From NCBI GenBank assembly GCA_012517065.1, contig JAAYVR010000042.1:1-42702 (forward strand): 42,702 bases of DNA, given 5' to 3'. The translations under genes and the position numbers were made by a program. Position 1 is the first letter of the stretch; every line of letters starts with the position of its first letter. The DNA is from Verrucomicrobiota bacterium (lineage in GTDB: Bacteria; Verrucomicrobiota; Verrucomicrobiia; Limisphaerales; J093). The notes below the pieces were generated by a model. The model saw only the letters and a list, made by a program, of their open reading frames with translations. It was not told the origin of the DNA and did not search any database. Positions 20,414-33,370 of the stretch are shown here, piece by piece.

Positions 20414-20424
20414 CTCCCAACCAC

Positions 20425-20845
20425 GTGTCTGTCCCCATGTAGCCCTATTCGACCTCGCCGCTTATCCCAATGGTTTCTAACGCGCCGCCGCGGATGCAGC
20501 GGGCGTTGCCAGGCGCGAAGCGTTTGGAGTGCGGCAGCTTGCTGCCGCTTTGTCCCTACGCCCAAACAACGTGCCTGTCCCCATATGGCCCCATTGGATC
20601 GTGCCGCTGATCCCAATAGCTTCTCACGCGCCGCCGCGGATGGAGCGGACGTTGCCAGGCGCGAAGCGTTTGGAGTGCGGCAGCTTGCTGCCGCTTTCTC
20701 TCTATGCCCAAACAACGTGTCTGTCCCCATATCGTCCGAGGGGTTCCTCCACAGACTTCGGCGACCGCGGATTGGAACAACGAACAATTTGCGGGTCACG
20801 CCGCAATCCGGGGCCAAAACCCAAACAATGAGCCTGTCACCCTAT
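20425..20845. repeat. 146-bp tandem repeat with conserved hairpin
   Basis: Boxes GTG(T/C)CTGTCCCCAT(A/G)T start at 20425, 20571 and 20717, giving an exact 146-bp period, with a decayed box at 20830. Each full unit has a GC-rich spacer, the segment GGCGCGAAGCGTTTGGAGT, and a hairpin GCGGCAGC-TT-GCTGCCGC (20531-20548 and 20677-20694). A copy with GCGGCGGC-TT-GCCGCCGC is at 201-218. The frames inside the array are shared low-complexity translations of the repeat and were not accepted as genes. Nothing else is evident between 20846 and 21050. Confidence 0.85.
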
Positions 20846-22922: not shown

Positions 22923-23741
22923 CTATCCGCCCCGGTAACGACGAAACAATGCCGCGCACCCTACCAAGCCCGAGGAAAGCAACACTATCACCGCGCCACT
23001 CGGCAAGTCAGCAACAGCCGCAATCACAAAACCACCCAACCCGCTCATAAGCCCGAGAAACGCCGACAACAACAGCACGCGCCCGCACCCGCGCGTAAGC
23101 TGAAAAGCCGCCATGGCCGGATTGCTCACAAGACTGTAGATCATCAAACCGCCAACTGTCTGAAAGTTCACCGTCAATGTGACGGCAGTAATCCCAAGGA
23201 ACATGGTCCACACAAGGCCAACCTGAATCCCAACCGCCTGCGCTTCCATCCGCGAAAAAAGAATCGCTCGCAGTTCCTTGAAGAAAAGCACTACAAAAAC
23301 CAGAATCGCCGCACACACCAGCCCCATCAGCCACACATCTTCCCAACGACAGAAATTCAAACTGCCCCAAAGCAAACTGCGCACGTCATTGTCGCTCTTG
23401 CCAAATATCCCGTGCAAACCGATTCCAAGGAACGCAAGCCCCATCGACGCGGAAAACAAGAAGCTTAGCAGTATGTTGTTGTCCAAACTCACCCGCTCCG
23501 GATTTGCCATCCCAAGCGCAAAAGCAGCGAGCAATGCCCCTCCAATGGCCGGCAACAAGAGCAACTGCCCGCCCAGTCCAAACAAACTACCAAAGACCGC
23601 CCCAGCCAGAGCCGCATGCGCCACACAGACACCCAAGAATGGAATCCGCATTCCAACAATGAACGTGCCAAGCGCGCCGCTCGAAGCGCCGGCCAAAGCG
23701 CCTCCAGCCATGACAGGCGCCCAATAAACAAGGTCAATCAT
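22923..23741 (-). CDS. Metal-type ABC transporter permease (ZnuB/MntB family)
   Basis: 272-residue inner-membrane permease with about eight hydrophobic segments. The family signature appears in the early GTFIVGMRIPFLGVCVAHAALAG and later in TVGGLMIYSLVSNPAMAAFQLTR. Members form the membrane channel of zinc, manganese or iron importers. The ATG at 23741 overlaps the end of the ATPase gene by 8 bp, so they are translationally coupled; the frame upstream to 23768 lies inside that gene. It is the last gene of the operon. The metal cannot be told from this protein. Confidence 0.9.
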   Translation of the reverse strand: MIDLVYWAPVMAGGALAGASSGALGTFIVGMRIPFLGVCVAHAALAGAVFGSLFGLGGQLLLLPAIGGALLAAFALGMANPERVSLDNNILLSFLFSASMGLAFLGIGLHGIFGKSDNDVRSLLWGSLNFCRWEDVWLMGLVCAAILVFVVLFFKELRAILFSRMEAQAVGIQVGLVWTMFLGITAVTLTVNFQTVGGLMIYSLVSNPAMAAFQLTRGCGRVLLLSAFLGLMSGLGGFVIAAVADLPSGAVIVLLSSGLVGCAALFRRYRGG

Positions 23742-24540
23742 CTCGATGGCCCCCCGGTACCAAAGCATGCCTGCCCGCTTCGTGCCATGGACGTAGTCCG
23801 TCCCCGTAAAGCTCAGTCACGCGTGTTTCCGTGAAAACTTGCTCCGGAGCCCCATCTGAAACCAAACGACCGGACTCGAGGAGCGCGACCCGGTGGCATG
23901 ATGGAGGCAACACTTCGAGCTCGTGGCATACCAGCACAACACTGATGCGAGTCTGCGTGTAAATCTGATCTATTGTCTCGACGATTCTTTCCCGCCAGCC
24001 GAGGTCGAGGTTCGCAGTTGGTTCATCCAAAAGCAACAACTCCGGTTCTTGCGCCATTGCGCGCGCGATGATTGTCTTCCGTTGTTCACCCCCAGAGACA
24101 GCGCCAAACGGCCTGTCGGCAAGCGACGCCAACCCAAGTCGCTCAATCCATCTGTCAACAATCTCCCAGTCTCGGCGCGTCAGTCGTTTGAAAAGGCCAA
24201 TGCGCGCCGTCCGCCCAATGGCCACGACCTCCCGCACCGTCAGTGGAAGCTCGCTCCGGGCGGGCAACAGTTGAGGCACATAGCCAATCCTCCTGCGAAG
24301 CATTGCCAACCTCGCACCTCGCAAGTCACGGACGTTCTCGTTCAACACGACGATTTGGCCCTGCGCATGCCTGACAAGCCCAAGACAAACCCGCAACAGC
24401 GTTGTCTTGCCTGCACCGTTCGGTCCCATCAACGCAACAATGCCGCCCTGCTCGACACACAAACAGTCAACGTCAAGCAAACAACGCCGGTCTGCATGCA
24501 CCGTTACGGCGCGCAAACAAATCACATTCACAGAACCCAT
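23734..24540 (-). CDS. Metal-type ABC transporter ATP-binding protein (ZnuC family)
   Basis: 268 residues. Walker A is GPNGAGKTT (39-47), the Q-loop is GYVPQ, the signature is VSGGEQRK, Walker B is LLLLDEPTAN and the switch histidine is CHELEV. The order and the partner permease place it in the zinc/manganese importer class. The start at 24540 lies right at the edge of an inverted-repeat element that separates it from the binding-protein gene, so its own ribosome site may derive from the element. Confidence 0.92.
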   Translation of the reverse strand: MGSVNVICLRAVTVHADRRCLLDVDCLCVEQGGIVALMGPNGAGKTTLLRVCLGLVRHAQGQIVVLNENVRDLRGARLAMLRRRIGYVPQLLPARSELPLTVREVVAIGRTARIGLFKRLTRRDWEIVDRWIERLGLASLADRPFGAVSGGEQRKTIIARAMAQEPELLLLDEPTANLDLGWRERIVETIDQIYTQTRISVVLVCHELEVLPPSCHRVALLESGRLVSDGAPEQVFTETRVTELYGDGLRPWHEAGRHALVPGGHRDD

Positions 24541-24642
24541 ATTTCGCAGCCCGGCGTAGCCCGAACCAAAGTTGCCTGACGAGCATTGCCCCGGCCCCTG
24601 CGCCCCCTGATGCGGGCTGTCAGCCGCGCCGGGCTGGGAAAT
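24541..24642. repeat. Inverted-repeat element, 'CAGCCCGGCG' family, second copy
   Basis: Arms ATTTCGCAGCCCGGCG (24541-24556) and CGCCGGGCTGGGAAAT (24627-24642). It sits between the binding-protein and ATPase genes of the metal operon and touches the ATPase start codon. It is reversed relative to the copy at 13969. Such a hairpin inside an operon could reduce downstream expression relative to the binding protein. Confidence 0.75.
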
Positions 24643-24745
24643 ATGCCACCCAGCGAGGCGAGCAAAGCGCCAACAACAGCAGCAGCCCGTCAGGCGTCAT
24701 CGCCATCACACACCTTGCCGGTCTTAGCTCGAGGCTCGCCAAGCG

Positions 24746-25579
24746 TCATCTTTGGACACTCTCAAGGAGCCGGTCAAGGTTCGCCATGACCATGTTATCA
24801 AACGATACCGCACCGTCCCTCGACACAGGAAAATTCTCGAAAACCACCACACACGCTCTCAGCCGAGCCGCCAAGGCGTCAGCGGTGCGCCGGCCTTCAG
24901 GCAGATTGGCGATGACAACCTTTGCGCTCGAAAGTCTGCCACTCTCCAACGCATCGTCGATCTCCCTTATGCTAGCGGTGTCTGCTGCGCGAAATACCGC
25001 CACGACATTGAGCCCAAGCCACTTGCAAAATGCTTGCTGATGGTGGCTCGCAACAACGGGCAATCCAACCAGCCCGGCTCTGGCAACGCGGTTCGTCACT
25101 TCCGCCGACAACGCCGCAAGACGCGATTTGATGTCCCGCAGCCGTGATTCCGCCGCGGTCTCGTCTAGCAAACCAGCCACGACCAGGTGCCGCGCCACCT
25201 GTTCGCACGCCAAGAGGTAAGTCTCCGGTTGGCACATACCGCCACCAAGCGCAACTTCACAAATGCGCGGCTTGTTTTCGCTGCCAGAGTTCAGCCTCGC
25301 ATCCAGAGATTTCTGAAAATCAAAGCGCAATAGAACCCGGCACAACCGCAGCTTCTGGACTTCGCTGGGCCGGATATCAAAATGGCCCGGGCACGTGCCC
25401 GGTTCTGCGAGCCGCAGAAAACCTGTCCGTGTCTGGAGCAGGTCTGCAGCGGCAGCCTCGAGGTAGGAAGTCGTCGTGGCTATAATGGGTTCCTTGCCGG
25501 TGCTCTCCCTTGGACTGCAAGCGCTCAGCCATAAGGCAAGCGCAGACAGAACTATTGTGGAAAAAACGCGAAATGGCAT
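24746..25579 (-). CDS. Atypical metal-type ABC substrate-binding lipoprotein
   Basis: 277 residues. A lipoprotein signal ends LWLSAC, so C21 would be lipidated. The body resembles the ZnuA/TroA family: H66 lies in PGHFDIRPSEV, where the family has DPHxYxPxP, and H179/H180 lie in SHHQQAF, where the family has HxAFxY. The second ligand block (DPHxWLDP) is replaced by GGGMCQPET with no histidine, and the last acidic ligand appears to be an asparagine (VIANLPEG). The mature protein holds seven further cysteines (63, 80, 107, 116, 125, 185, 243), which is unusual. Metal preference is therefore unclear. It starts 7 bp after the methyltransferase-pseudopilin gene. Confidence 0.82.
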   Translation of the reverse strand: MPFRVFSTIVLSALALWLSACSPRESTGKEPIIATTTSYLEAAAADLLQTRTGFLRLAEPGTCPGHFDIRPSEVQKLRLCRVLLRFDFQKSLDARLNSGSENKPRICEVALGGGMCQPETYLLACEQVARHLVVAGLLDETAAESRLRDIKSRLAALSAEVTNRVARAGLVGLPVVASHHQQAFCKWLGLNVVAVFRAADTASIREIDDALESGRLSSAKVVIANLPEGRRTADALAARLRACVVVFENFPVSRDGAVSFDNMVMANLDRLLESVQR

Positions 25580-25586
25580 CCGTCAC

Positions 25587-26900
25587 CTAAGGACTTGAGA
25601 TTTGAAGGCCTTCCCTGTCTGCCATGCGCATGATGACACCCGAGTCGCCCGAATGCTTGTACCATGTGGATGTGCTCAGGGGCGCTTTGCTGCTCTGACT
25701 CTTCTGGCTCGGCCAGCGCGGGCCAAGACTCCAAACCACCCATTTGACCGGGCTTGTTTTCGAGTCGCCGTAATAGCTTCCGACCGTGCCGTCCAATTCA
25801 GGAAACGTGTCCGGCACCCAAAGCTCGTAGTTACCAACCGGATCTCCATTCAGCAGTTGGGGCCCCGGCGCCGCATATTTGTATGTGTGCCCTGGCGCGA
25901 ACGGGTCTTCAAGGTCGGCTTGTCTGCCGGCTTTCTGGCTGCGAGGGAGGTAATGTTGTTCGCTGAGTTCAACTGGCAACTGGCACCAGTGCTCAGACAG
26001 GTCCGAATTGCAATTGACCCGGACGGGCGGGACACGCCCGGCATGGTCGTCGCTGTACATTTGCAGAGCGAGGCCAATGCCATACAACTCTGCATGCACC
26101 TTGATCACCCGCGCCTTTTCCCTTGCCCGTGCCAGCCCGGGAAATCCAAGGCTGGCCAGTATGCCAATAATCGTGATTACCACCAACAACTCGACCAGCG
26201 TGAAAGCCTTCGTCGATCGCGCGCAGACCTTGTCGGTGCGGCGTTCCTTCAATCCTGCAACCGAAGGTGTCTTTAAGGACGGGAGACGGCGCGCAACCAG
26301 CAGAAACAGCCCCTCTTCATCAACAAGGCTTTCCAGACGCAACCCTGCCGGCTCAAGCCATTCGGACCATTGGGACGAGGCTGGCAAGGTGTCTGTGGCC
26401 ACGGCGCCGCCTGTTTGCTGATGAAATGAGTTGATTTGTGCGCTGCTCGCAAAGTGCAGCACGATCAAACGTCCATTGCTCTTAAGGCTCTGAGCGAGGA
26501 ACCGCAATGCCGCAGGCTTGTCGCGGAAATGAGGGAAACTCTGAAAACACAACACAACGTCAAAACGCTCGAGTCCGGGCGAACCTGCGCACACGTCGAA
26601 AAGCTTGAAGTCGGCGTCGATTCCCTTTGATCGTGCGCGTTCGAGCATTGCCGCTGAAAAGTCAACGGCTGTCACCCGGCCAGGATGTACCCACGAAGCC
26701 AGCAGACCGGTCACCTGCCCGGTACCACAGCCAACCTCAAGCAGGTCCATGCCCGAATCTATTCCAAGGCGGCCCCTGATTTCCGACAACCTTCCCAAGG
26801 TCTTGGACTGCATCTCCGGATCATTGTCCCACGTGGCCGCGTGATGATCGAAAAACGCGATGCGCGGGTCAGTTTTGCCGTTGTCAACTGCAGGTTTCAT
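25587..26900 (-). CDS. SAM methyltransferase fused to a pseudopilin
   Basis: 437 residues in one uninterrupted frame. Residues 1-210 are a class I methyltransferase: FFDHHAATWDND, motif I LLEVGCGTGQVTG (54-66), the acidic VTAVDFS and VVLCFQSFPHFRDK. Residues 225-437 are a complete pseudopilin: STKAFTLVELLVVITIIGILASLGFPGLARAREKA with glutamate 237 at +5 if cleaved after A232, then the MYSDDHAGRVPP domain. No stop and no good internal start separates them; the TTG at 26252 has GGA directly against it. The pilin membrane helix normally has its N-terminus in the cytoplasm, so a cytoplasmic methyltransferase is topologically possible and would be released by prepilin peptidase. A lost stop codon or sequencing error is the alternative. 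It lies 7 bp before the metal-binding lipoprotein gene. Confidence 0.85.
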   Translation of the reverse strand: MKPAVDNGKTDPRIAFFDHHAATWDNDPEMQSKTLGRLSEIRGRLGIDSGMDLLEVGCGTGQVTGLLASWVHPGRVTAVDFSAAMLERARSKGIDADFKLFDVCAGSPGLERFDVVLCFQSFPHFRDKPAALRFLAQSLKSNGRLIVLHFASSAQINSFHQQTGGAVATDTLPASSQWSEWLEPAGLRLESLVDEEGLFLLVARRLPSLKTPSVAGLKERRTDKVCARSTKAFTLVELLVVITIIGILASLGFPGLARAREKARVIKVHAELYGIGLALQMYSDDHAGRVPPVRVNCNSDLSEHWCQLPVELSEQHYLPRSQKAGRQADLEDPFAPGHTYKYAAPGPQLLNGDPVGNYELWVPDTFPELDGTVGSYYGDSKTSPVKWVVWSLGPRWPSQKSQSSKAPLSTSTWYKHSGDSGVIMRMADREGLQISSP

Positions 26901-27011
26901 ACTGCAAGAGAAGCCGCTGGAAAACCGCGCCAGTTGGTACCAGCCCGCCGTTGTCCGAGGAGCAGCGCTCGCTCACAACAAACGCTTCTTGTTGTCCCAA
27001 GACTTGCCATG

Positions 27012-28157
27012 TCATTTGCTCAGCCTGTAAAACCTTGTCGCTGCGTCCTCAACAGTTTCCTGAACAACAAAGCTGCCGTTGACCATGGCAGGTTTCGCAG
27101 TCACAGCCCGCCACTCCGTTGGGACAAGCGAATCCGCATACTCGAGCCTGAAACCCGGCGCAGAAGCGGGCCACGAAATCAGGCTGATTCGCAGCACAGG
27201 CGGATCGTGAACGATCACCTCCTGCACAAAAAGTTCGTAACCAAAAGTCCCGTTGCTGCCCGATCCCGACTCCTGGTTCAGAATGCCTATCGCGTCGAAT
27301 TTCCCGGTGGGCGCAGGACCAAGGTTGTAAAGCGACGTGCGCACCGGAAAGTACCGACCTTCGCCATCGGTCACGATGCATTTTCGCTGCTCCCAAACGG
27401 TTTTTCCCCACCCCGCATTGTCAACCAGCGCGAGCCCGTTGATTCGCACGCGCATACCCTGGTAATGCTCACCCCCTGTTTGGCGTGTTTGGTCAAAAAT
27501 GTCTTCCTTTGTGCTCGGATCGCCGTCGTCCGGCCTCACAAGGTCCGATAGCGCAATCAATTCAGGTTCCGGCAATCCGTAATCAGCGCGAACAAGCACG
27601 ATTGTAAAATCAGCGTCCGGACTTTTGTCGTGCGCCTCGTTTATGTTCCTCTTGCCACCATAAAAGAGCGACCTGTTGGCGGTCACTTCGACAAGATCGC
27701 CTTTGCGAAAACGATGGTTGTTGACCGGGTCGCGGCTGACGCGGTTCACCTCTGCCACCCACTCCTCATCCGTGTAACTCTTCGCGCTGTCCTTGATCCA
27801 TGCAAGGTTCCCATAGTTCTGTCCCATCCAGAGCGCTGTTCCACCCCTGTCCCCGGGTTCCACGGCCTGGATGAACACCTGCCACTGGCCGCCCATCTTG
27901 CCCGCACCCGCCCCGTCGTTCCACGGAACAAAACTGGCAGACGTATCAAGAAATTCCTCAGGATCGTTCAAAACCACTCCCCGGATTGTGAAAGGCAAGG
28001 AACCGCTCCATGCGCTGGTCCCATCCGCATTAACAGCCTGAAGTGAGGAATGCGTTTCGCACATGACCGCGTTTTGCCCGCCAACGATCGCAACCGCAGC
28101 GGCAAAAACACCCCGCAGAATCATCAACCCCGACCGAATGGAAAACACCGTATTCAT
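27012..28157 (-). CDS. Exported protein of unknown function, first gene of the metal operon
   Basis: 381 residues from the ATG at 28157, chosen because it opens a signal peptide (IRSGLMILRGVFAAAVAIVGG). The frame is open to 28304, but that part lacks a signal and overlaps the candidate promoter. The middle (FTIRGVVLNDPEEFLD, GQWQVFIQAVEPGDRGG, RFRKGDLVEVTANRSLFYGGK) suggests OB-fold-like beta domains, as in nucleotide- or ligand-binding secreted proteins. The last 50 residues (FRLEYADSLVPTEWRAV ... FYRLSK) are the standard C-terminal tail of verrucomicrobial secreted proteins. It lies 111 bp before the fusion gene on the same strand. The function is unknown. Confidence 0.78.
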   Translation of the reverse strand: MNTVFSIRSGLMILRGVFAAAVAIVGGQNAVMCETHSSLQAVNADGTSAWSGSLPFTIRGVVLNDPEEFLDTSASFVPWNDGAGAGKMGGQWQVFIQAVEPGDRGGTALWMGQNYGNLAWIKDSAKSYTDEEWVAEVNRVSRDPVNNHRFRKGDLVEVTANRSLFYGGKRNINEAHDKSPDADFTIVLVRADYGLPEPELIALSDLVRPDDGDPSTKEDIFDQTRQTGGEHYQGMRVRINGLALVDNAGWGKTVWEQRKCIVTDGEGRYFPVRTSLYNLGPAPTGKFDAIGILNQESGSGSNGTFGYELFVQEVIVHDPPVLRISLISWPASAPGFRLEYADSLVPTEWRAVTAKPAMVNGSFVVQETVEDAATRFYRLSK

Positions 28158-28729: not shown

Positions 28730-29932
28730 TTAAGGTTGAGCGGTGGCTACGGTTCCTCTGTGCGGCGAAATTAGCTTGACCTTTGCTTCAACACCCAGCC
28801 GGGAGAGAAACTCGGATTCAACCTCGAGCCGTACTGTCTCCAAGGTCCGAATCAGGTCGTCGAAAATCCGATCCGACACAGCCAGCGTCAGGACGATATG
28901 GCGGTCTGTGAATTCGATTTCGACACTGTGATTGGCTATCGATGTGTGGCTTAGCACTTCCCTGATTTGCTCCTCGTAAAGCGGCATTTCATTGACGAGG
29001 ACCTGGCGATCCAGCCGTTGACCCGGGATGATCGTGGCGGTGGTCCGACCGCATTTGCATTTGGTGCGCTTGAGTTGGCAGCACACGCGCGTGGCGTAAC
29101 GCAAAAGCGGCGTGGCTTCCCTTAGCAAAGTGGTAACGAGAAGCTCGCCATCCCTGATTTCAACAAGGAAATGATCCTCGTTGACGTGGAAGCTGCCGTG
29201 TTCACACTGCACGCAAAAGCCCGGATCCAAAATCACAGGAATCCCGAAATTGCACTGGACACGGGCGAACAAGCCGGCTTGAAGCTCATGCCGCGCAAGC
29301 TCATCCACGGGCCTTGAAAGCAGTACGGTCCGCAAGTAAAGGGACTGCGGATCTATCCGCCGCTTGTCGAGTTGAGCTGCGATTTCCTTGGCGTTTGTTG
29401 GCGTTGTCACCAGAACCGTCGGCCGATAATTCCGCAGCATCGCCAACTGGTAATCGATGTGGAACGGGTCTTCTGCGATCACTGAAGCTTCAACGGTTTG
29501 AGCGCCGAGCGCGTATCCTGAAAAACTCCCTGACGAACCGTTGCCGAGGTTGATCTGGATCACGTCATTTGCGGTGACGCCCGCGGCAACCAACTGGCGC
29601 GCAACAAGCCGGCCCCACTGTTTGATGTCGTTCTGAGTGTGGCCAATGATCAGTTGGCGTCCTTTTGGCCCCACCGCCGAATGCAGTCTGATCACTTCCC
29701 GGAGGGGCAGCGCGAACATTCCATAAGGGAAACTGTCAGCCAGTTCCTCAGGCGTCGTGACGGGCAGCCGACTCAAATCCGCCAGCGATTCAATCCGGCT
29801 GTCGCCAAGCGTCTCGCGGTACCTGCGGACATTCCGTTTGAGTCGCGCAATCAAAGCTTGCAGCCGCTCGAGCTGCAATTGCTCGATTTCTTCGGGGCGC
29901 CCGCATTCGTATTTCGGATCAAGAATTCTCAT
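28730..29932 (-). CDS. PaaK-like AMP-ligase homologue with eroded active site
   Basis: 400 residues, clearly built on the phenylacetate-CoA ligase fold: LQLERLQALIARLKRNVRRYRE at the start, then LPVTTPEEL, a central GSFSGYALGAQTVEASVI, and ELLVTTLLREATPLLRYATR. The catalytic motifs are changed. The P-loop SSGTTGKP is SAVGPKGRQ, the YGxxE adenine motif is FGIPVILDPG, and the conserved GRxDDM...RG loop is GQRLDRQVLVNEM. A cysteine group (CVQC, CC...CKCG) is retained. The protein may have lost adenylation or may bind a ligand without catalysis. Its ATG at 29932 overlaps the livF stop by 4 bases (ATGA), so it belongs to the importer operon; the TTG at 29938 is less likely. Confidence 0.85.
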   Translation of the reverse strand: MRILDPKYECGRPEEIEQLQLERLQALIARLKRNVRRYRETLGDSRIESLADLSRLPVTTPEELADSFPYGMFALPLREVIRLHSAVGPKGRQLIIGHTQNDIKQWGRLVARQLVAAGVTANDVIQINLGNGSSGSFSGYALGAQTVEASVIAEDPFHIDYQLAMLRNYRPTVLVTTPTNAKEIAAQLDKRRIDPQSLYLRTVLLSRPVDELARHELQAGLFARVQCNFGIPVILDPGFCVQCEHGSFHVNEDHFLVEIRDGELLVTTLLREATPLLRYATRVCCQLKRTKCKCGRTTATIIPGQRLDRQVLVNEMPLYEEQIREVLSHTSIANHSVEIEFTDRHIVLTLAVSDRIFDDLIRTLETVRLEVESEFLSRLGVEAKVKLISPHRGTVATAQP

Positions 29933-30648
29933 TCCCAAATCTCTTTGTAGCCCTTGCCAAGGTAGGCGCGTCTCACTTCGGGATTGGTAACAAGGTCTGC
30001 CGCTTCACCCTCGAGAATGATTTCACCGGTCTCCATCACGTAAGCGCGGTCGGCGATCTCGAGCGCCGCCACTGCGTTTTGTTCGACGAGAAACACGGTT
30101 ACTCCATCCTCTTTCAGTCGCTTGATGCAATTGAAAACCTCCCGCACCATCAACGGCGCCAGCCCCAATGATGGCTCATCAAGCAACAGCAACCGCGGGC
30201 GCGCGACCAATGCCCGGCCAAGGGCAAGCATCTGCTGTTCGCCTCCCGAGAGCGTGCCGGCCAGTTGGCGCAAACGCCCTTTGAGATGCGGAAATCGCTC
30301 GTAAACATCTTCGATCGCCCGCTTCCGGTCCAGATTGTGATACCCACCCAAAAGCAGGTTTTCCCAAACTGTCATATCTCCAAACAACTGACGGCCTTCC
30401 GGCACCAGCATCATCGCATGACTGATCCGCGTCCACGGTGGCTCACCAACAACACTTCGGAGATTGACTCTGATATCCCCGCTCCAAATCGGGAGAAGCC
30501 CGGCAATCGCGCGCAACAGAGACGTCTTGCCCGCGCCGTTGGCACCCAGCAACGTCACGATTTCACCTGCATCGACGTGCAAGCTCACGCCTTTGACAAT
30601 CTCCAAGCTGCCGTATCCGCAGCGCAAGTTCCTAACCTGTAGCAACAT
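29929..30648 (-). CDS. livF: Branched-chain amino-acid-type ABC transporter ATPase LivF
   Basis: 239 residues. Walker A is GANGAGKTS, the signature is LSGGEQQML, Walker B is LLLLDEPSLGLAP, and the switch region is LVEQNA, all in the form typical of LivF. It pairs with LivG as the second ATPase of an importer of the hydrophobic amino-acid/amide class. Its start overlaps livG's end by 17 bp and its stop overlaps the ligase start, so the operon is tightly coupled. Confidence 0.95.
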   Translation of the reverse strand: MLLQVRNLRCGYGSLEIVKGVSLHVDAGEIVTLLGANGAGKTSLLRAIAGLLPIWSGDIRVNLRSVVGEPPWTRISHAMMLVPEGRQLFGDMTVWENLLLGGYHNLDRKRAIEDVYERFPHLKGRLRQLAGTLSGGEQQMLALGRALVARPRLLLLDEPSLGLAPLMVREVFNCIKRLKEDGVTVFLVEQNAVAALEIADRAYVMETGEIILEGEAADLVTNPEVRRAYLGKGYKEIWE

Positions 30649-31408
30649 TTTCTTTTTCGCCGAGATAAACGGCTATCACCTTTGGATCGGAACGGACCTG
30701 TGCCGGCGGCCCCTCTGCGATCTTGACCCCGAAATCAAGCACAAGGATTTCGTCTGCGATATCCATCACAAGCGACATGTCGTGCTCGACCATCAGCAGC
30801 GTTATCCCCCTGTCCCTGATACGCCGAAGCGTTCTTGACAGATCGTCTGTCTCCTTGGTGTTCAACCCGCTGGCAGGTTCATCCAGCAATAACAGCCGCG
30901 GTTCCGTCCCAAGCGCTCGAGCCAGCTCAACAAGCCGCCTCTGGCCAAGGGAAAGACCGCCCGCTGAGTGTCGAGCTTTCTCGGCCAACCCAACTTCCTC
31001 GAGCAATCTCGTGGCCTGTTCGACCATGGCCTTTTCCTCGCGTCTTTGTGTCGGCAATCTCAAAGCGCAACCGATCAAACCCGCACGGCCATGCAGATGG
31101 CGCCCCACGAGCACATTCTCCAAAACCGTCATGTGCGGAAACAAACTCACATTTTGGAACGTGCGCGACACTCCCAGCGCGGCAATCTGAAATGGCTTCA
31201 ATCCGGTGATTACCTTGCCGTCCATTCGGACCACACCGTCGGTTGGTTTGATCAACCCACAAATAATGTTGAACAACGTCGTTTTCCCGGCGCCGTTCGG
31301 CCCGATAATCGCCTTGATTTGCCCTGGGCTGACCTGGAACGAAACGCCGTTCAGCGCCACAAGCCCGCCGAAACATTGACGGACATTCGCAGCCTCAAGA
31401 AGCGCCAC
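30632..31408 (-). CDS. livG: Branched-chain amino-acid-type ABC transporter ATPase LivG
   Basis: 258 residues from a GTG at 31408. Walker A is GPNGAGKTT, the signature is LSLGQRRLVELARAL, Walker B is LLLLDEPASGLN, and the switch is VEHDMSLVMDIAD, all LivG hallmarks. The frame opens at 31498, but the N-terminal 30 residues are unlike the family and lie inside livM; starting at 31408 gives the usual length and a 14-bp overlap. Confidence 0.95.
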   Translation of the reverse strand: MALLEAANVRQCFGGLVALNGVSFQVSPGQIKAIIGPNGAGKTTLFNIICGLIKPTDGVVRMDGKVITGLKPFQIAALGVSRTFQNVSLFPHMTVLENVLVGRHLHGRAGLIGCALRLPTQRREEKAMVEQATRLLEEVGLAEKARHSAGGLSLGQRRLVELARALGTEPRLLLLDEPASGLNTKETDDLSRTLRRIRDRGITLLMVEHDMSLVMDIADEILVLDFGVKIAEGPPAQVRSDPKVIAVYLGEKENVATG

Positions 31409-32489
31409 TGCGCGCCTCCTTTCCCGGTTTGTACAACGTACGGCATCGACCCATCCACAAACCCAACTGTCTGAACGGTCCTTGCGGCGCCAGTGCAACT
31501 ATTGCAATCAGGATTATCCCGAAAACCGCGTTGTCATAGGTCCCAAACCAGCCGCGCAAAGAAAGAAAAACCAGTAATGTACTGACCACCAGCGCGCCCT
31601 CGAGATTTGCCACCCCTCCAGCAGCAACCAACGCAAGGTACCGAACAGACTTGAACGCGCTCGACTCGGACGGTCCTATGCCTTCGTTGTAATGTGTGAG
31701 CAGACTGCCGGCCATTGCCGCGAGGGCAGCGCTTACCATGAAAACTTCGAGCTTGAGCTTCGGCGTGTTCACGCCCATGGCGCTTGCGGCTGCTTCGCTA
31801 TCGTGAATTGCCCGAAGTGCACGGCCCATGCGCGATTCCACGAGGTTCCGCAGCAGCACCAGAACGGCGATTGCCACCGCCCATGCAATGTAGTAGTTCT
31901 GCACTCGAACCGCGCTTTTGCCGCTGACAGCAAGTCCGCCCACAGACAGTCTTGGCACCCCCGTAATCCCATCAGCAGCACCAAGAGCCGGGCTGCCAAT
32001 CAGAACGCAATGAATTATCAGCCCAAACCCAAGCGTGGCCATCGCCAGATAATGCCCGCGCAAACGCAACGACGGATACCCGATCACTGCGGCAATCACC
32101 ACCGTCAACAGAATCGCCACCATGAATGCCAGCCACGGCGCCAAGGTCAGCACAAGCGTGTCGTCGTACAAGCTCTTCCGGCTCACAATCACACCGCATT
32201 TGTCCAACAAATCAAACCATGCTGCCCCCCGATAACCGGCCATGTTGTGCGTCGTAAGAAAAGCCGATGTGTATCCCCCAATTGCAAAAAACGCCCCCTG
32301 GCCAAGCGAAACCTGCCCGGCGTATCCCATGAGCAACGACAGTCCCATCACGACGATCGAGTAGTACACGGCCATCGTCAGTTGAGTCAGATAGTAAACC
32401 TTCCCAACTGCACTCAAGCTGAGCTGGACGACTATCGCTGCCGCTGCGAATGCAGCCAGCCTCGGCCATATGCGTGCGGTCGTGTTCAT
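31395..32489 (-). CDS. livM: Branched-chain amino-acid-type ABC transporter permease LivM
   Basis: 364 residues with eight or more hydrophobic segments. The LivM signatures GYAGQVSLGQGAFFAIGGYTSA near residues 55-75 and RALRAIHDSEAAASAMGVN in a cytoplasmic loop are clear. There is a longer-than-usual insert (residues about 90-110, FDLLDKCGVIVSRKSLYDDT) between the second and third segments. The ATG overlaps the livH stop by 4 bases. Confidence 0.95.
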   Translation of the reverse strand: MNTTARIWPRLAAFAAAAIVVQLSLSAVGKVYYLTQLTMAVYYSIVVMGLSLLMGYAGQVSLGQGAFFAIGGYTSAFLTTHNMAGYRGAAWFDLLDKCGVIVSRKSLYDDTLVLTLAPWLAFMVAILLTVVIAAVIGYPSLRLRGHYLAMATLGFGLIIHCVLIGSPALGAADGITGVPRLSVGGLAVSGKSAVRVQNYYIAWAVAIAVLVLLRNLVESRMGRALRAIHDSEAAASAMGVNTPKLKLEVFMVSAALAAMAGSLLTHYNEGIGPSESSAFKSVRYLALVAAGGVANLEGALVVSTLLVFLSLRGWFGTYDNAVFGIILIAIVALAPQGPFRQLGLWMGRCRTLYKPGKEARSGAS

Positions 32490-33370
32490 ACCTCGCGCAC
32501 GGAAACACCAGACGGGCGGCCAAACAAACCATGCGGCCGCAAGAACAGCATCGCCAACAAAATGGCAAACGCTGCCACATCCTTGAATGCTGATGGTATC
32601 ACACTAACGCTGAAAGCCTCGATCAACCCCACCGTCAGCCCGCCAACAACCGCGGCCATCGGATTGCCAAGCCCACCCAAAATCGCCGCCGCAAATCCCT
32701 TGATCGCAAGACCCGGCCCCATCTCATAATGCGTCATTGAAATCGGCGAAATAACGCACCCGGCCAACGCGCCAAGTCCGGCGCTCAGCCCGAAAGCCGC
32801 CGTCCGCATGTTGCCCGCGTTTATCCCCACCAACATCGCTGCCTCGAGATTGGACGAACAGGCGCGCATTGCCCTGCCATACAATGTCCTCTTGTAGAAA
32901 AGCTGCAGAAGCACAACTACTATGGCCGCCGTGCCGAGCACCCAGATAACCTGGGGCGACAGCGCCGCCCCAAGGAGTTTTACCGACGATGCTTCGTTTC
33001 CAGTGAAATATGGGAGAGACCGCACCTTCTCATCCCAGACATGCAACGCCAGTTCCTGGATGACGATAGACAGACCTATCGTGATGATTATCATGTGAAG
33101 AATCGAGTGCGATCGCAATCTACGGAAAAACACAAGTTCGAGCCCGCATCCAAACAACGTCACAATTGCAACCGCCACCGCAACCGCAACAGGAACCGGA
33201 AGAAACGATGCCAGTGTAATCGCTACCATCCCGCCCAGCATCACAAACTCGCCCTGGGCAAAATTCAGCACGCCAGTCGCGCTGTAAATGATATTAAAAC
33301 CAATCGCAACAATGGCGTACACGCTGCCAACTGTTATGCCCGAAAAGAAATATTGCAGTGCCTGAACCAA
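32486..33370 (-). CDS. livH: Branched-chain amino-acid-type ABC transporter permease LivH
   Basis: 294-residue permease with about eight membrane segments. GITVGSVYAIVAIGFNIIYSATGVLNFAQGEF at the N-terminus is the LivH hallmark, and GRAMRACSSNLEAAMLVGIN is the coupling loop. The ATG at 33370 fits the family start. It follows livK after 254 bp that contain a hairpin at 33565-33588. Confidence 0.95.
   Translation of the reverse strand: MVQALQYFFSGITVGSVYAIVAIGFNIIYSATGVLNFAQGEFVMLGGMVAITLASFLPVPVAVAVAVAIVTLFGCGLELVFFRRLRSHSILHMIIITIGLSIVIQELALHVWDEKVRSLPYFTGNEASSVKLLGAALSPQVIWVLGTAAIVVVLLQLFYKRTLYGRAMRACSSNLEAAMLVGINAGNMRTAAFGLSAGLGALAGCVISPISMTHYEMGPGLAIKGFAAAILGGLGNPMAAVVGGLTVGLIEAFSVSVIPSAFKDVAAFAILLAMLFLRPHGLFGRPSGVSVREV

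Follow-up and report, generated by a model that had tools for sequence, protein, structure and literature searches.

A single open reading frame in the window, the 42,702-nucleotide stretch of DNA analysed here, joins a methyltransferase to a type IV-like prepilin, and we describe it as a fusion of two operon neighbours that is confined to one lineage and would have an unusual effect on how the prepilin is processed. Our best reading, to which we give a probability of about one half, is that the neighbours' fusion is made as a polyprotein from which prepilin peptidase would release both the enzyme and the pilin.

The fused frame and its two halves

The frame (25587..26900, minus strand) starts with ATG and runs through 437 codons without an internal stop, giving a product of 437 amino acids. 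Domain models match both halves above their cut-offs: Pfam Methyltransf_23 at residues 36-191 (E 9e-18), Pfam N_methyl at residues 229-251 (E 2.2e-6) and NCBIfam IV_pilin_GFxxxE at residues 231-252. These matches, the frame check and a sister species bear out the preliminary description of this DNA, which had proposed one frame for the two proteins; the boundaries it gave move by two residues each, with the methyltransferase ending at about residue 208 (not 210) and the mature pilin starting at residue 233 (not about 231). Between them lies a joint with a basic leader, residues 209-232 (LKTPSVAGLKERRTDKVCARSTKA; 26205..26276, minus strand), which is predicted to be disordered. It starts where the unfused methyltransferases reach their C-terminal end in an alignment with 21 such homologues. 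The AlphaFold2 model likewise places a disordered joint at 210-232, followed by a helix at 235-286.

The methyltransferase half (26277..26900, minus strand) was characterised by Pfam, AlphaFold2, alignment and dN/dS. It is modelled as a Rossmann fold, with pLDDT 80-95 in most blocks and a confident fold that ends near residue 206, and together with the intact SAM-binding motif LEVGCGTGQ this fold identifies it as a class I SAM methyltransferase. Among the 23 homologues aligned, the 21 unfused ones align with it from end to end, and their conserved motifs are kept. Comparison of the window species with its sister species (G001) gives dN 0.052, dS 0.393 and a dN/dS of 0.134, which points to purifying selection acting on this half. 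The methyltransferase part has no stop codon of its own, so the enzyme can only be produced in one chain with the pilin.

The pilin half encodes a mature pseudopilin of residues 233-437 (25590..26204, minus strand), recognised by the Pfam and NCBIfam models and by its identity to unfused orthologues. The class III signal of type IV-like prepilins, a basic hydrophilic leader that ends in Gly or Ala before a hydrophobic stretch with Glu+5, is complete in KERRTDKVCARSTKA|FTLVELLVV, and the normal cleavage site and +5 glutamate noted earlier are found as A232|F233 and Glu+5. The AlphaFold2 input comprised only nine sequences, and the pilin head is modelled too poorly for a fold search. The pilin body has not decayed, sharing 57-75% identity with unfused orthologues; given this, the signature of selection on the methyltransferase and the motifs kept in it, both halves look functional as judged from their sequences.

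Is the join real? The evidence comes from two species, both represented by metagenome bins, of which the window genome (G000) is 95% complete. The same in-frame join is present in a separate assembly of the one other species of the genus compared (G001, contig C28, locus L023; JARYMD010000125.1), where residues 1-248 show 90% amino acid identity to the window, with no indels and no stops. That contig has 3.8-fold coverage and ends after residue 248, 16 residues into the pilin, up to which the join is seen to be kept; the shared stretch spans the joint, a segment free of repeat-like sequence. An artefact of assembly or binning, or a recent sequencing indel that removed a stop, might be suspected in a metagenome bin whose pilin N-terminal motif recurs about 69 times, but the join runs through the non-repeated joint in a second, independently assembled species and synteny is coherent on both sides. 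We therefore consider assembly error very unlikely as the source of the fusion, reject an assembly chimera, and find the artefact reading as a whole barely credible. The open joint is in itself weak evidence of selection, since the chance that it would stay open under 12 random substitutions is about 0.55.

Separate genes in relatives

Of the 320 genomes of the order, 34 match the methyltransferase or the pilin strongly, and the two are joined only in G000 and G001. No further fusion appeared in these 320 genomes or among 384 sampled from the class, nor among 388 sampled from the phylum, which were searched with the methyltransferase query alone and inspected at their largest open frames. The search of related genomes proposed earlier thus recovers the same fusion in the sister species and separate versions in more distant relatives; two separate genes are not the rule in all close relatives, as G001 carries the fusion.

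In about 20 more distant relatives the methyltransferase and the pilin are separate genes of one conserved cluster. Its usual order is ETH, pilin, ZnuA-like protein, ATPase and permease, with the methyltransferase mostly divergent upstream of ETH. In the window, synteny identifies ETH, a secreted OB-like protein and the pilin's most constant neighbour, upstream of the fusion (27012..28157, minus strand); its structure model gives weak OB-fold matches. A ZnuA-like metal-binding protein (Pfam ZnuA; 24746..25579, minus strand) begins 7 bases past the pilin stop and is accompanied by a metal ABC transporter ATPase (23734..24540, minus strand) and an ABC-3 family permease (22923..23768, minus strand), all three supported by domain matches and by synteny. 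The cluster of OB-like protein, methyltransferase, pilin, ZnuA-like protein, ATPase and permease (22923-28157) is conserved within the order and also outside it. Immediately upstream, on the minus strand as well, are a phenylacetate-CoA-ligase-like gene and a row of branched-chain-amino-acid-type ABC transporter genes (28730-33370). Elsewhere in the window, just after a transglutaminase-like gene, lies a direct repeat of 146-base period (20415-20845), with two full copies that are 87% alike and partial ones.

Two relatives carry the methyltransferase directly before a pilin gene, so that adjacency exists without fusion. G253 has the gene order of the window on one strand (ETH, methyltransferase, pilin, ZnuA, ATPase, permease), with the cluster's own pilin; there the pilin ATG lies in another frame ahead of the methyltransferase stop, with 14 bases shared by the two genes, such that a single indel would fuse them. 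In G003, a different pilin begins about 10 bases past the stop of the methyltransferase; in the tree this methyltransferase groups closest to the fused pair, with support of 87/93, which is below the starred level. A lost stop codon joining two neighbours, raised earlier as the alternative to a real gene, is in effect the origin of the fusion, as shown by the separate genes of relatives and the overlapping pair of G253; as an alternative it falls away, and the gene is both real and a lineage-specific fusion of neighbours.

Other arrangements show which of the genes belong together. Within the same order, the stretches examined in genomes such as G030, G040 and G270 have OB-pilin pairs but neither a methyltransferase nor a transporter, G367 has the methyltransferase beside the transporter and no adjoining pilin, and more distant relatives in the phylum have ZnuA, ATPase, permease and methyltransferase, with ETH and pilin added in one of them. 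Because each pairing occurs alone, the partner of the methyltransferase is the transporter and that of the pilin is the OB-like protein, and gene order indicates that the full cluster combines these two sets. The genomic partner of the methyltransferase being a transporter, its likeliest kind of substrate would be a small molecule linked to metal.

Several candidate fusions were rejected. In G367, what seemed to be a methyltransferase, a stop and a pilin in one frame proved to have a second methyltransferase, not a pilin, after the first; a match in G104 from residue 126 extends into non-homologous sequence, the G104 methyltransferase being separate and divergent; and long frames at pilins or methyltransferases in G013, G826 and G740 are other-frame read-through or unrelated upstream sequence. 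In the transporter loci L048 (G012, contig C70) and L117 (G367, contig C371), the methyltransferase gene is followed by another one of a different kind. The sister species also has a second, unfused OB-protein/pilin pair (L063; G001, contig C130), whose pilin is about 60% identical and has apparent frame breaks; no second copy of this pair was seen in the window genome.

Origin and processing of the fused product

How might such a product arise and be used? In the ancestor of the genus, two neighbours of the metal ABC-transporter/pilin cluster would have joined in frame. As there is no stop or ATG between the parts, a ribosome starting at the methyltransferase ATG makes methyltransferase, leader and prepilin in one chain, with the enzyme in the place of the short, cleaved leader peptide of ordinary prepilins. 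The pilin segment would then insert like other prepilins, leaving its N-terminus in the cytoplasm, in keeping with the earlier proposal that this topology makes the fusion possible, which holds up; the genome's prepilin peptidase may cut after Ala232. The products would be a soluble methyltransferase that ends in a basic tail of 24 residues and an ordinary pilin of 205 residues, and the polyprotein could supply these two components of a single metal-uptake module in equal amounts. The genome encodes one prepilin peptidase, complete with peptidase and N-methylase domains, which makes release of the enzyme possible and means that pilin N-methylation does not depend on the fused enzyme. Besides this one detected prepilin peptidase, the window genome has about 69 pilin N-terminal motifs. 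Prepilin leaders end in Gly or Ala, remain cytoplasmic and differ in length (PMC10191384); a processed prepilin with a 230-residue leader was not found in the literature searched.

The pilin might instead be made mostly on its own, from the in-frame TTG217 (26250..26252, minus strand), the start-like codon nearest the cleavage site, with the pilin tail of the stop-less methyltransferase minor or tolerated. G001 shares this codon, and a start there would leave a leader of normal length, 16 residues (MKERRTDKVCARSTKA), but no Shine-Dalgarno sequence precedes it at good spacing, and 33 of the 34 distinct pilins surveyed in the window genome have, upstream and in frame, an ATG that in most cases is no more than 27 residues from the cleavage site. 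The fused pilin is the one surveyed pilin that lacks a nearby ATG start, with no in-frame ATG between residue 85 and its cleavage site. A methyltransferase without pilin cannot be made in any case. We regard independent production of the pilin as unlikely.

The remaining readings concern the fate of the enzyme. That the whole enzyme serves as a leader, the uncut form keeping it at the inner membrane beside the transporter until cleavage releases or switches it and so couples it to pilus assembly, strikes us as distinctly unlikely. A stable membrane anchor, with the pilin helix only a tether and cleavage absent or slow, would fit the N-in orientation of the helix and its basic leader, but the entire pilin head is retained and the cleavage site is canonical, which leaves it improbable. 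More improbable still is that the methyltransferase modifies its own pilin, for instance at the N-terminus next to which it lies in cis: the prepilin peptidase already has an intact N-methylase domain, elsewhere the methyltransferase accompanies the transporter, at times without an adjoining pilin (G367 and the more distant L152 and L156), and OB-pilin pairs exist without it.

Relation to known systems

The preferred polyprotein reading, if true, implies that prepilin peptidase could act as a polyprotease, and a methyltransferase domain retained on the side of the cytoplasm would indicate what size of cargo can be carried by a prepilin leader. Through the fusion, both proteins are also tied to a single gene cluster that has been little studied and includes a metal ABC transporter. 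No methyltransferase-pilin fusion was found in the open-access papers searched.

With its Rossmann fold and SAM motif, the enzyme resembles class I SAM methyltransferases (Methyltransf_23/25/11; BioC-, CpaM- and DVU_1556-like). Unlike the BioC-, CpaM- and DVU_1556-like enzymes it forms a separate family tied to a ZnuABC-like transporter, and its NCBIfam scores (53.9, 45.1 and 42.7 bits) lie far below the curated equivalog cut-offs of 185, 180 and 155 bits. The pilin resembles verrucomicrobial GspG-like pseudopilins (PF07963/TIGR02532) in its class III signal, A|F site, Glu+5 and N-terminal GspG similarity, but it misses the GspG equivalog cut-off (36.8 versus 88.85 bits), has its own conserved head, and occurs together with a secreted OB-like protein and a transporter for metal, with no secretion genes seen here. 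Like the fused gene, bacterial prepilin peptidase, with its A24 and N-methylase domains, links methyl transfer to pilin maturation, but it is an unrelated enzyme and is separately encoded in the genome.

Modular type IV pilins are widespread: one survey, which defines them by an N-terminal pilin motif plus an extra domain, counts over 1,200 such proteins and 264 architectures (PMC8179133). As in PilB of Streptococcus sanguinis (PMC8179133), the fusion connects a pilin module through a short linker to an unrelated domain that is not specific to pili. The definition in PMC8179133 would not count it, because here the extra domain stands before the pilin motif, N-terminal to the cleavage site: whereas the extra domain of PilB-type pilins follows the pilin module and is exposed outside, the methyltransferase comes before the signal and would remain cytoplasmic.
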